A stretch of DNA of 64,000 bases from Anaerolineae bacterium. GTDB lineage: Bacteria; Chloroflexota; Anaerolineae; J036; Brachytrichaceae. How positions within the stretch are numbered: the stretch's first letter is position 1; every line of letters starts with the position of its first letter. The position numbers were made by a program, and so were the translations under genes. Location: assembly GCA_947476335.1 (NCBI GenBank), contig CANJQH010000010.1, positions 1-64,000 on the forward strand, in the 5' to 3' direction. Below, one piece after another: positions 24,406 to 28,962 of this stretch. The notes under the pieces are model-generated. The model saw only the letters and a list, made by a program, of their open reading frames with translations, searched no databases and was not told where the DNA came from.

Positions 24406-24517
24406 GTAACTACTCAGGTCAGCTATTTTTCCAACGCGAAACACACTATTCTCTCCCCCTTCGGGGGAGAGAATAGTGTGTTTCGCGGAAAATACTGATT
24501 TAGGCCTGAGTAATTGC
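24406..24517 (+). mobile_element. Family A palindromic element, copy 1 (112 bp)
   Basis: It starts GTAACTACTCAGG and ends CCTGAGTAATTGC (a slightly changed end). The core hairpin has arms of the CGAAACACACTATTCTCTCC type. A perfect 8-bp duplication GGCTTTTA flanks it at 24398-24405 and 24518-24525. Orientation is the one with the TTTTTCCAACGCG end on the left. It lies in the 380-bp gap 24269-24649, which otherwise holds the terminator and a decayed copy. Confidence 0.9.
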
Positions 24518-24649: not shown

Positions 24650-25723
24650 TTATGACCTTGGAAGTTCAAGCTCGGAATTTCTGTTCGGTATAAGGTACGC
24701 GGCATTTCCCCGCCGTCGATTGCGCCGTGTTACAGCCATGCTCACAATGTGCGCAACTGCTTCTCCGTAGTTGTAGCCGGCTGCGTCGCATGCTGCCATG
24801 AAGCCGCCGTCTGACGTAATGTCCGGATTGGGGTTCACATCCACCACGTAGGGGCGTTCATGCTCATCAACGCGCAAATCGACTCGCGCATAGTCTCGGC
24901 AGTCAAATGCGCGGTATGTGCGCAGGGCGATGTCTTCGATGCGCATGCGCAGCGCATCTGATACCTTCGGCTTGGCAATCACCGGCATCGAATTCCACTC
25001 GATGCTGTTCGGAATCCATTTGCTGTCCCATGTCACCATGTGGTGCAATGGGTTCGGAACGCGTGAAAAGTCGATTTCGCGCAGCGGCAGTACGCGCGGC
25101 CGCGCATTTCCCCAGATACCGACGTTGATCTCACGTCCAGTGACAAAGGCTTCCACCAGCGCCGCCTCTTTCACCACGCTGTTCACGTAATGCACGCGTT
25201 CGCGCAGCTGTTCCACTGTATGAACCACCGAGTCACGCGTCACTGCCACCGAACAATGTGCACTGACCGGCTTCACAATCGCCGGGAAGTGCTCCCATGC
25301 AGTCACTTCGTCGGCGTTGCCAAACTCGGCGCCGGGCGGCGTTGGAATTTCAAGCCGCTGCAGCAACCGCTTGACGTGGCCTTTCTGCGTCGACAATCGC
25401 AGGGACCATGGGCCGTTGCCAGTGTAGGCATACCCAAGCTCCTCCAGTTCGCTGCAGATGCGCGCATCTCCACCGATTTCATCTTCGACGCCCTCGCACC
25501 AGTTGAAAACGATCCATTTGGCCGGATCAAAGCGTTCGATCGCCGGCCGCATGTCCTTCCAGAACTCGCATGTGTCAACCACAAAGCCGAGCCGTTGCAG
25601 CTCATCGCGCATTATGTTGGTCACTAAATCTGCGTCAATGCGTTCCTTCGGCGTGTACGTCGAGTAATAGTTGTACAGAATCACGACGTTTGGGCGGAGG
25701 CTGTTCAGACGGGCTTTGGGCAT
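24650..25723 (-). CDS. D-Ala-D-Ala-ligase-like ATP-grasp protein C
   Basis: The 357-residue protein has the ATP-grasp fold of D-alanine-D-alanine ligases, which join a carboxylate to an amine via an acylphosphate. Visible are the N-terminal pre-ATP-grasp domain, a VKPVSAHCSVAVTRDS lid segment, CRDYARVDLRVDE and the metal site as VDVNPNPDITSDGGF (about 294-308). Canonical Ddl has E-I-N-x-x-P-G at the last site, so this belongs to a diverged subfamily shared with protein B. The C-terminus is basic. Its start overlaps the GNAT gene by 19 bp. It is last of a four-gene operon. I cannot name the substrates. Confidence 0.85.
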   Translation of the reverse strand: MPKARLNSLRPNVVILYNYYSTYTPKERIDADLVTNIMRDELQRLGFVVDTCEFWKDMRPAIERFDPAKWIVFNWCEGVEDEIGGDARICSELEELGYAYTGNGPWSLRLSTQKGHVKRLLQRLEIPTPPGAEFGNADEVTAWEHFPAIVKPVSAHCSVAVTRDSVVHTVEQLRERVHYVNSVVKEAALVEAFVTGREINVGIWGNARPRVLPLREIDFSRVPNPLHHMVTWDSKWIPNSIEWNSMPVIAKPKVSDALRMRIEDIALRTYRAFDCRDYARVDLRVDEHERPYVVDVNPNPDITSDGGFMAACDAAGYNYGEAVAHIVSMAVTRRNRRRGNAAYLIPNRNSELELPRS

Positions 25724-26202
25724 AGACGTCTCCAGTAGATCAACAGGTTGTCGCCGTCGATGTAGTAATCGGGCACTTGTGCGCTTGTGACGAATCCTGC
25801 TGATTCATACAGCCGACGTGCCGGCGCGTAGGCAGGGTTTGAGGACGTGTAAATCACCATGATGCGGCCGCCGACGTCAGTTGCGCATCGGACTGCTTCG
25901 TTGATCAGCAGGCGCCCGGCGCCCTTGCCACGCATTTCCGGTCGCAGGCAGATCCAGAACAAATCCCACGTGTTCTTTGTCAGTGATTCGAGGCCAAAGC
26001 AGGCGAAACCGCCAATTTGGCCGGATGGCGCTGTGGCAACAAGCCAGTTGTATCCATCCGGCCGTGGACGCATCCATGTTTCAGCGAACATCTCATCGAC
26101 GCACTCGGCATCGCTCGGCCCAAAAATCTGTGAGGTGAGCAACACTTCGCGAATTGACGAGCGATCTGCCCAGGCGGCGCTGCGCACCATGAATCCGTTC
26201 AC
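25705..26202 (-). CDS. GNAT-family N-acetyltransferase
   Basis: The 165-residue protein has the GNAT fold with the acetyl-CoA pyrophosphate-binding segment LRPEMRGKGAGRLLI (about 86-100) and a C-terminal YAPARRLYESAGF. It would acylate a primary amine. The ATG overlaps the stop of ATP-grasp protein B by four bases and its end overlaps ATP-grasp protein C, so it is embedded in that operon and likely acts on the same product or its precursor. Confidence 0.88.
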   Translation of the reverse strand: MNGFMVRSAAWADRSSIREVLLTSQIFGPSDAECVDEMFAETWMRPRPDGYNWLVATAPSGQIGGFACFGLESLTKNTWDLFWICLRPEMRGKGAGRLLINEAVRCATDVGGRIMVIYTSSNPAYAPARRLYESAGFVTSAQVPDYYIDGDNLLIYWRRLCPKPV

Positions 26203-27227
26203 ATCGCCACCCCTGCCTGCACTGGCACTTGCAGGTGCGCTGATCGCATGATGGCCAGATGAAGCAGCCGCTCCAGCATCGCGCCGTGGCTCAACCCGCG
26301 CGCGCGGGCTGCATTCATGAAGCCGCCGCTGGAGCTGATGTCACAGTTGCAGTTCACATCGAGCACCATCGGCTCGCCATTGCGCAGCCGCAGATCTACT
26401 CGTCCATAATCGCGGCATGCGGACGCACGATATGCGGCAACGGCGACCTGTTCGATGCGCGCCTGCAGTGTCGGCTCCAGCGGTGCCGGGCAGATCGCCG
26501 GAATATGTTGATACGCAGCCGATTTGGGCGTCCACTTGGCATCGAACGTGCACAACCGATCGTGGATGTCCGCGAAGTAGCCGTATTGCATCGACGAAAT
26601 TCCCAGCACCTCGAATCCATCTGGGTGTGCTTCCGAACCCCAGACCGAGACGTTGTACTCGTCGCTGTCAAGAAATTCCTCGATGAGCGCAGGCTGCCGA
26701 TATTCTTCGATCACGTGCTGCACCTGACGGCGCATTTCAGACGCATTCAGCGCGACCGAATTGCGCGTGATGCCGAAGGAACAGTGTTCGGCTGCTGGCT
26801 TGATGATGACGGGGAAAGCGTCGAAGGTGAGCTGATTTGCATCTTTGCACAGCATCCAGCGCGGTGTTGGCACCCCGGCTGTTTCGAGTGCGCGCTTCAT
26901 GCGCCATTTGAACTGATTAACGTCCAGCGACCGCGCGTCTGAACCCGTGAAGGTGTAGCCGAGTGCGCTGAGTCGCGCAGCGACGTGCGCGTAGTAGAAC
27001 ACCTGACTCGGCAGCCCTTCACACACATTCAGCACCACCCATTCGGATGGCGAAAACCTCTGCAGCGACTCGTCAATCTGATGCACCAGTTGCAGAGGCA
27101 TGACATACCAGCCCATCTCAGTCAGCGACTGAATGACTTCCTGTGCAAGATGCAGCGTCGATTCAACCTCGAAATGTGGGCTGTTTTCGTCGATGCCATA
27201 CAGGAGAAGGACCGGAGGTTTTTTCAT
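26199..27227 (-). CDS. D-Ala-D-Ala-ligase-like ATP-grasp protein B
   Basis: The 342-residue ATP-grasp protein is closest to protein C of the same operon. Shared marks are VCEG early on, IKPAAEHCSFGITRNSV in place of the glycine-rich EGTGMGI of Ddl, CRDYGRVDLRLRNGE and LDVNCNCDISSSGGF (about 289-303). It may form an amide bond between unusual substrates. It starts 9 bp after protein A ends. Confidence 0.85.
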   Translation of the reverse strand: MKKPPVLLLYGIDENSPHFEVESTLHLAQEVIQSLTEMGWYVMPLQLVHQIDESLQRFSPSEWVVLNVCEGLPSQVFYYAHVAARLSALGYTFTGSDARSLDVNQFKWRMKRALETAGVPTPRWMLCKDANQLTFDAFPVIIKPAAEHCSFGITRNSVALNASEMRRQVQHVIEEYRQPALIEEFLDSDEYNVSVWGSEAHPDGFEVLGISSMQYGYFADIHDRLCTFDAKWTPKSAAYQHIPAICPAPLEPTLQARIEQVAVAAYRASACRDYGRVDLRLRNGEPMVLDVNCNCDISSSGGFMNAARARGLSHGAMLERLLHLAIMRSAHLQVPVQAGVAM

Positions 27228-27236
27228 GGCACTGCA

Positions 27237-28265
27237 TTAATTGCAAAGGTCGTAGCGCCGCAGGCCGGCGTTTAATACGGAACGAACAAGATCACCGTGC
27301 GTCCAGTTTTCCGTATGTGCCATGAGCGTAAGGTCGCTGCGCGGGGTAATTCCTGGCAACCCATTGATTTCGAGGATGAACAGTTGTCCATCGTCCTGCA
27401 GCCGAAAATCGACGCGTGCGTAGTCGCGGCATCCGGTGACGCGAAAAGTTTGCAGCGTCTGGCGTTGCACTTCGTTCGCGAGTTGTGCGTCGAGCGGCGC
27501 TGGGCAGTGATAGCGGTAGAGATGTTCGAGCGTATTCTTTTGCGCGGTGCCGTACACTGGCACAAGTTCTGCGGGGTAGCCGCTCAGGTCCGCTTCGCTG
27601 ATCGGGAAGAAATGTAAGTCGTCGTTGTTGCCCACAAGCCCGCACGTGATGTCTCGTCCCGCGATGTAACTCTCGACGAGCGCCGGCTGTTGATATGCCT
27701 CGATCATGTAGGCCACACTGTCACGCAGCGATGCTTCATCGTGCACCAGGCTGCGGTTGCCGATGCCCATGCCTGTTCCTTCGTGCGCAGGCTTCACGAA
27801 CAGTGGAAAACGCAACGCCGCATGCAGCGCTGTATCAACAGCGTCGAATACCTGAAACAGCGGCGTCGGCAGATCGTAGTAATGCAGTATGCGCTTCGTC
27901 GTCGGCTTGTCGTTCGTTACTGCGGCAGCCAGCGGCGTCGGGCCCGTATAGCGCATCCCGAGCATTTCCAGCAGCGCTGGAACCTGCGCTTCACGGCTGT
28001 CGCCGCGAAAACCTTCACAGGTGTTGAGACAGATGTCTGGCGCGAATGCCTGCAGATTTGCAGCCAGATGCGGTCCGCCTTCATACGTAGCAACCTCATG
28101 CCCCGCATCACGCAACGCTGTGGCATATGCCGCCGCGGCCGTTTCGCTGTCCAGTTCCACCAGCGCGTCTTCGGGCGCGTTGTCAGGCAATGCCGGAGCA
28201 TTTGAGGCAAGGTTGACGAGCAATGCAACTTTGAAAGCTCGCGTCGATGCAATAGGTAATGTCAT
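27237..28265 (-). CDS. D-Ala-D-Ala-ligase-like ATP-grasp protein A (canonical type)
   Basis: The 342-residue protein is the first gene of the operon and the closest to true D-Ala-D-Ala ligase. It has NTCEG (about 81-85), NDK with the ATP-binding Lys (about 118-120), FVKPAHEGTGMGI (about 156-168), CRDYARVDFRL and the metal-binding EINGLPG (about 299-305). Housekeeping ddl usually lies with mur genes, so this copy with two paralogues and a GNAT probably has another job. I see no clear ribosome site. Confidence 0.87.
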   Translation of the reverse strand: MTLPIASTRAFKVALLVNLASNAPALPDNAPEDALVELDSETAAAAYATALRDAGHEVATYEGGPHLAANLQAFAPDICLNTCEGFRGDSREAQVPALLEMLGMRYTGPTPLAAAVTNDKPTTKRILHYYDLPTPLFQVFDAVDTALHAALRFPLFVKPAHEGTGMGIGNRSLVHDEASLRDSVAYMIEAYQQPALVESYIAGRDITCGLVGNNDDLHFFPISEADLSGYPAELVPVYGTAQKNTLEHLYRYHCPAPLDAQLANEVQRQTLQTFRVTGCRDYARVDFRLQDDGQLFILEINGLPGITPRSDLTLMAHTENWTHGDLVRSVLNAGLRRYDLCN

Positions 28266-28481: not shown

Positions 28482-28799
28482 TTAAGGTTGGACCATACGG
28501 TTTTGTTGAGCCATCCATTGCTCATGCGCGACAAATTCGCCGCCCTGTATGCTGCGTTTTGTGATGCGGTATGCGTCATCAAAAAACAGTTCCATCTCGA
28601 TGCGCGAATGGCATTTGCCGTCCATCGCCATCTTTCGCACGAACAGCACATCGTCGTCGTTGCGGCTGATGTCGCTGCCCTTGTTGATGCGCACACGCAC
28701 GACTTCGCCGCACTTTGCGCAGCGTACATAGACCGAAATTCCGTTGGAATCACCATCGGAACGGCGACCGAAGATCATTTGCAGCCATTGCTTGAGCAT
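28482..28799 (-). CDS. Small zinc-ribbon-like protein of unknown function
   Basis: The 105-residue protein has one CAKCGE motif (about 28-33) after VYVRC, followed by VRVRINKGSDISR, and ends with an EQWMAQQ stretch. It has a single Cys pair plus an earlier or later Cys (C62 in GKCHSR), so a full zinc site is uncertain. Codon use and start (MLKQWLQMIFGRRSDGD) look genuine. Small proteins of this form occur in Chloroflexota as I recall, without known function. Confidence 0.7.
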   Translation of the reverse strand: MLKQWLQMIFGRRSDGDSNGISVYVRCAKCGEVVRVRINKGSDISRNDDDVLFVRKMAMDGKCHSRIEMELFFDDAYRITKRSIQGGEFVAHEQWMAQQNRMVQP

Positions 28800-28850: not shown

Positions 28851-28962
28851 GTGCCTACTAAGGCCGCACTATTTTCCATCGCGAAACACGCTATTCCTTC
28901 CCCCGAAGGGGGAAGGAATAGCGTGTTTCGCGGGAAATACCGATTTGGGCCTGACTAGGTAC
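28851..28962 (+). mobile_element. Family A palindromic element, copy 2 (112 bp)
   Basis: The ends have drifted (GTGCCTACTAAGGCC and GGCCTGACTAGGTAC) but length and layout match. The core stem is of the CACGCTATTCCTTCC type. Flanks TACTTTTT (28843-28850) and AACTTTTT (28963-28970) agree at 7 of 8 positions. Its right end lies next to the stop of the GH3-like gene. Confidence 0.88.

Follow-up and report, generated by a model that had tools for sequence, protein, structure and literature searches.

A conserved operon of Ddl-like ATP-grasp ligases and an N-acetyltransferase as a candidate pathway for acetylated beta-lysine peptides in Chloroflexota

Organisation of the operon

The genes described here are located in a window of 64,000 nucleotides, the whole stretch of DNA that was analysed, from the genome of an Anaerolineae bacterium, where A, B, G and C form a single operon on the minus strand that is transcribed in this order. 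Gene A (27237-28265) encodes a Ddl-like ATP-grasp ligase of 342 residues belonging to a group that we refer to as A clade. It is followed by gene B (26199-27227), which encodes a diverged Ddl-like ATP-grasp ligase of 342 residues from a second group, the B clade, by gene G (25705-26202), which encodes a GNAT N-acetyltransferase of 165 residues (PF13508/PF00583), and by gene C (24650-25723), whose product, a third Ddl-like ATP-grasp ligase of 357 residues, is a B-clade paralogue located beyond G. A and B are separated by a gap of 9 bp, B and G overlap by 4 bp and G and C by 19 bp. Against the domain model Dala_Dala_lig_C (PF07478), with a cut-off of 24 bits, the three ligases score with 115 (A), 67 (B) and 96 bits (C). 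The tight spacing of the four genes and the position of the GNAT between two paralogues had already been described in a first-pass annotation of this DNA, and all open reading frames were recovered at the minus-strand positions given above. The motifs that it quoted are equally correct, with EGTGMGI and EINGLPG found in A, EHCSFGI and DVNCNCDISSSGGF in B, and AHCSVAV and DVNPNPDITSDGGF in C.

The order A-B-G-C is common to the host family, which comprises Chloroflexota of the Thermoflexales/Candidatus Roseilinea type and in which we found nine complete copies, and the counterparts of B are 54-62% identical in most of its genomes. This recurrence, together with the degree of conservation of B, shows that the arrangement is not due to chance. 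A possible additional member (28482-28799, minus strand), directly upstream of A, encodes a protein of 105 residues with a CxxC pair, for which no Pfam domain was detected at an E-value of 0.001. The protein occupies the same position in 10 loci of the host family but is not found in the wider class, and its membership in the operon is uncertain in light of this lineage-specific distribution. On the opposite side, beyond C, the plus strand carries genes of respiratory complexes and an ATP-synthase, as judged by reading of the sequence.

Neither a Mur ligase nor an NRPS was detected among the window genes run against family libraries, no van genes were present among the window proteins tested, and no regulator that would tie the operon to osmotic stress was found in the window. 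The earlier statement that mur, NRPS and resistance genes are missing is thus upheld for the tested genes, although the set contained in the window is incomplete, with a further component, the KamA protein described below, being encoded elsewhere.

Relationship of the ligases to D-alanine-D-alanine ligase

The initial assignment of A as canonical Ddl is refuted by its scores of 159 and 146 bits against two curated Ddl models with respective cut-offs of 243 and 245.7 bits. On the former (NF002378), B and C reach 93 and 105 bits, and all three proteins are located far below the cut-offs of Van ligases (495-775 bits). The true Ddl of the genome is encoded on another contig (C44:8376-8996, with 237.7 bits on PF07478), and A, B and C would thus not be required for the synthesis of peptidoglycan. 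The relationship to Ddl is nevertheless reflected in the predicted structures of A and B, whose AF2 models (pLDDT 93.1 and 94.5) matched Ddl in the PDB in a fold search at 15-27% identity, with the best matches being Ddl at 20-27% for A and at about 20% for B.

The distinct character of the ligases becomes apparent in a comparison of their predicted active sites. Equivalents of the ATP- and Mg-binding residues K144, K215, R255, D257, E270 and N272 are found in all 48 members of the A clade and in at least 88 of the 89 members of the B clade, where the position of E270 is occupied by an aspartate in about half of the sequences. Changes are found among the residues which we take to form the D-Ala site of Ddl, namely Glu15, Ser150, Tyr216, Gly276, Ser281 and Leu282. 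The A clade has preserved the equivalents of Gly276 (48/48) and Ser281 (42/48) and lost those of Glu15 and Tyr216. The B clade has replaced Ser150 by alanine, cysteine or glycine (85/89), Gly276 by aspartate (81/89) and Leu282 by glycine or serine (84/89), and it has also lost Glu15, with B of the window carrying cysteine, aspartate and glycine at the three replaced positions. Since Gly276 and Ser281 presumably contact the acceptor amino acid on its carboxylate side, their preservation in A and the replacement of Gly276, Ser150 and Leu282 in B suggest that the acceptors of both enzymes likely differ, with the acceptor of A probably containing a free carboxylate and the one of B likely being something else.

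A tree of 143 ligases, which was calculated with a quick method that leaves many inner branches weak, separates an A clade of 48 sequences from a B/C clade of 89 sequences, and both B and C of the window are found inside the latter. Since archaeal, Bacteroidota, Aminicenantes and Chloroflexota members are contained in either clade, the split is deeper than the phyla, and the two-ligase composition thus appears to be either ancient or to have moved as one unit.

Association of the cassette with lysine 2,3-aminomutase

The first-pass annotation had viewed the operon as a small pathway forming amide bonds in a stepwise manner, which is in line with the preserved ATP and Mg residues and the Ddl folds of A and B, but it had missed a partner, the KamA protein. 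This partner emerged from a neighbourhood search of the ligase subfamily, a check that the same annotation had recommended and that revealed linkage to KamA across phyla. A radical SAM protein of the KamA family, 450-480 residues in length, is encoded immediately before A or overlapping with its start in further families of the class. Named genomes were scanned and whole genomes of other phyla were searched, and the neighbourhood maps show approximately 29 loci, distributed over five or more phyla, in which the genes for KamA, A, a B-type ligase and G lie next to each other, with a median intergenic gap of -4 bp. With KamA abbreviated as K, Chloroflexota have the gene order K-A-B/C-G, while K is found at the other end (A-B-G-K) in Bacteroidota, Aminicenantes, an Acidobacterium and an archaeon. 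Three archaeal proteins of 694-770 residues (L171, L222 and L223) combine Radical_SAM, LAM_C and Dala_Dala_lig_C domains in a fusion of KamA and A. Their ligase half is of the A-type, as it scores with 401-408 bits against an HMM of the A clade compared to 294-313 bits against one of the B clade. Some lineages retain the K-A pair alone.

Relatives in this survey were retrieved by an alignment query, and a scan of genome contigs with B alone gave no matches. At strict thresholds, 28 of 148 Bacteroidota genomes and 15 of 119 genomes of the archaeal phylum contain ligases of the same branch of the superfamily. The PLP-synthase PdxS is annotated downstream in one locus (L065), which would fit the presence of a PLP enzyme in the pathway. 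Many B-clade genes are solitary (Smithella group), and KamA is encoded elsewhere in both such genomes checked. B and C of the window share only about 38-42% identity with the KamA-linked B type, and their substrates may thus have changed. ATP-grasp genes of rhizobial symbiosis plasmids were considered as candidates and rejected as distant solitary homologues that are adjoined by neither KamA nor a GNAT in the loci examined. On a plasmid of Thioflavicoccus, KamA is found together with an SbnA/ornithine-cyclodeaminase pair and a single distant ligase, which is suggestive of diamino-acid chemistry, although the ligase forms a long branch in the tree. Solitary GNAT homologues on plasmids were uninformative, a phage collection contained only two weak matches, both below 28% identity, and PADLOC returned none.

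In the genome of the window, KamA is encoded on another contig (C1:4088-5356). The protein aligns nearly end-to-end with the lysine 2,3-aminomutase of known structure (2a5h) and scores with 521.7 bits on TIGR03820, slightly under the cut-off of 525.4 bits. This is the best-scoring model for KamA proteins. Five full-length copies, either of the operon type or from the own genome, were compared with it, and two of them pass its cut-off. Equivalents of Asp293, Asp330, Lys337 and Arg134 of 2a5h and of its cysteine cluster are found in all 73 KamA sequences, a count that leaves out L224, a ligase that was mis-tagged as KamA. Based on published work on lysine 2,3-aminomutase, we take Asp293 and Asp330 to be the residues of the lysine side-chain site. 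Throughout the host family, KamA is located outside of the operon, and it is not found in 5 of the 27 genomes containing the cassette. Some of these are fragmentary, but two (G004 and G023) are more than 90% complete, and the link is thus strong in this family but not absolute.

The association is also evident on the level of genomes. Among 32 families in the rest of the class, each represented by one genome, KamA is found in 19 of 20 cassette-positive compared to 2 of 12 cassette-negative cases (Fisher P 1e-5), and a tabulation of cassette against KamA in 161 genomes of the phylum gives counts of 30/1 versus 28/102 (Fisher P 2e-15), with shared ancestry being only partly accounted for in both tests. 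When judged by family models, relatives seem to lack the known pathways that would compete for beta-lysine. AblB (TIGR03827) is found above cut-off in none of 60 relatives and has no match in the genome of the window, whereas control genomes were positive, and EpmA exceeds its cut-off in one of the 60. Lysine 5,6-aminomutase was not detected in the same 60 genomes, which constitutes a weak absence, since control genomes were also silent. AblB is also absent from the eight NCBIfam families listed for G, whose closest relative of known structure is 2r7h (E 8e-25), an entry whose depositors chose the name 'Putative D-alanine N-acetyltransferase', which does not constitute functional evidence.

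A proposed pathway and its relation to known systems

Taken together, we consider it probable that the operon is the host-family form of a conserved NRPS-free pathway, which combines the formation of beta-lysine by KamA with ATP-grasp ligation and N-acetylation. The fact that KamA travels with the cassette across phyla suggests beta-lysine as building block. In the proposed mechanism, KamA would convert L-lysine into L-beta-lysine and A would use ATP to activate a carboxylate for the formation of an amide bond involving beta-lysine, a role that is suggested by the K-A fusion and by the lineages containing K and A alone. B-type ligases, which include B and, by duplication, C, would then form one or two more amide bonds, and G would attach an acetyl cap to a free amine. 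As product of these steps, whose substrates, order and biological role we infer from the described relationships, we envisage a short peptide that contains beta-lysine, is N-acetylated and depends on neither an NRPS nor the ribosome for its synthesis. By analogy, it could plausibly act as a compatible solute in neutralised form, akin to N-epsilon-acetyl-beta-lysine, since an acetylated dipeptide is a known osmolyte (PMC1224877). With greater reservation, we propose that KamA, two to three Ddl-derived ligases and a GNAT may define an undescribed class of NRPS-free acetylated beta-lysyl peptides, which would be widespread in Bacteria and Archaea and possibly serve as compatible solutes.

Alternatively, the host family could have repurposed the cassette, with A, B, G and C making an amide compound free of beta-lysine and the distant KamA serving otherwise. 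The unlinked location of KamA and its absence in 5 of 27 cassette genomes would be in line with such a change, and so would be the strong divergence of B and C and the duplication of the B-type ligase. We still regard it as unlikely, since most genomes of the family retain a full KamA without AblB and EpmA, and since A and G have remained orthologous to the KamA-linked forms. It appears even less probable that beta-lysine would be part of a tag placed on a macromolecule such as a protein, a lipid or the cell envelope instead of a free metabolite. Peptide tagging by ATP-grasp enzymes and GNATs has been proposed for other families (PMC4431377), and two archaeal loci of the B clade or related to it adjoin LPG-synthase-C/GNAT-like proteins, but in the neighbourhood maps the operon is not adjoined by any conserved protein that could serve as dedicated target, peptidase or carrier, and ligases of the Ddl type use free amino acids or small peptides.

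A role in the cell wall or in glycopeptide resistance, where the ligases would generate D-Ala-D-X depsipeptide or dipeptide ends, is very improbable. It would be suggested by the shared PF07478 domain of A, B and C and by the Ddl fold of the A and B models, but it conflicts with scores far below the cut-offs of every Ddl and Van model, with the loss of the equivalents of Ser150 and Glu15 in the B clade and of Glu15 in A, with the true Ddl found elsewhere in the genome, with the lack of Van or Mur genes among the tested genes of the window, and with the occurrence of the operon also in archaea.

Genes of lysine 2,3-aminomutase are usually annotated as AblA, with a role in osmolyte synthesis, or as part of lysine fermentation. 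If our proposal is correct, a large share of the KamA proteins of Chloroflexota, and similar ones of Bacteroidota and archaea, would instead supply ATP-grasp ligation into a peptide, which would add another family of small molecules and extend the Ddl superfamily by additional classes of substrates. Environmental members of this superfamily are readily mistaken for cell-wall ligases in annotations. The first-pass annotation knew of no named system of this composition, and a literature search of partial coverage has revealed neither a described pathway of this kind nor work joining lysine aminomutase or beta-lysine with such an ATP-grasp operon, although the operon may have been predicted earlier in the literature on ATP-grasp amidoligases. 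Each ingredient is of a known kind, whereas the combination and its spread appear to be new.

The closest parallel is found in the AblA/AblB route to N-epsilon-acetyl-beta-lysine, which is used by methanogens and some bacteria (PMC12776343, PMC1224877, PMC3543383). It similarly unites a lysine 2,3-aminomutase with an N-acetyltransferase of GNAT fold in one operon. In contrast, the operon described here adds two to three Ddl-like ATP-grasp ligases, and its acetyltransferase G is not AblB, as it does not match TIGR03827. With Ddl (PF07478, TIGR01205), the ligases share the fold, the residues of the ATP/Mg2+ site and their length, but they score far below the cut-offs and differ in their substrate sites, with most changes found in the B clade. 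A cooperation of GNAT and ATP-grasp enzymes is also known from the ggn genes for N-acetylglutaminylglutamine amide (NAGGN), which encode an asparagine-synthase-type amidotransferase in addition to a fusion of GNAT and ATP-grasp domains, whereas G and the ligases of our operon are encoded by separate genes. As acetylated dipeptide osmolyte (PMC1224877), NAGGN resembles the product proposed here. Finally, the predicted operons of the R2K families contain ATP-grasp proteins of another clade, and an aminomutase is not mentioned in their description (PMC4431377), but they share with the operon of this study the linkage of ATP-grasp peptide ligases to a GNAT, for which a role in capping the peptide has been proposed.

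Immediate surroundings of the operon

Upstream of gene A, the first ligase gene of the operon, the minus strand encodes a conserved protein of 105 amino acids carrying a CxxC pair (28482-28799), which occupies a constant position in ten loci of the host family and finds no match in Pfam. The operon is bracketed by two copies of a palindrome (24435-24487 and 28880-28932) belonging to a REP/MITE-like family, which recurs at about seven other intergenic sites of the window (33582, 38551, 40042, 44704, 54836, 57395 and 62723). Two copies were inspected, and in each a 3-nt loop lies between perfect arms of 25 nt with the sequence CGCGAAACAC[A/G]CTATTC.... Matches to the arm number 22, compared to 2.2 expected.

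Neighbouring genes in Deltaproteobacteria and archaea

In three deltaproteobacterial loci (L169, L166 and L180), gene A and the pair encoding the lysine 2,3-aminomutase KamA and ligase B bracket genes that, as judged from their sequence alone, encode a PAS-type sensor and response regulators, suggesting that the proposed acetylated beta-lysine peptide pathway would be under two-component control. The archaeal versions L221, L223 and L224 contain a protein of about 440 residues that combines a PP-loop-like motif, SFGKDS, and a pattern resembling WCxxCxxC (minus strand, 5716-7038 in L223 and 5834-7168 in L224), and in L224 a diaminopimelate-decarboxylase-like gene precedes KamA.

Related ligases in other settings

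The genome harbouring the operon encodes an additional Ddl-like ligase of the A clade, which is located apart from it (G000:C21:15855-16847; locus L002, L104). Downstream of a related ligase in two archaea (L226 and L227) lie proteins of a single cluster, and the match of one of them to LPG_synthase_C hints at another purpose, perhaps one connected with the envelope. A Thioflavicoccus plasmid combines SbnA, an ornithine-cyclodeaminase family gene, a diaminobutyrate transaminase, a Ddl-like ligase and KamA (L039, 4464-9945), and this locus possibly encodes another diamino-acid peptide pathway.
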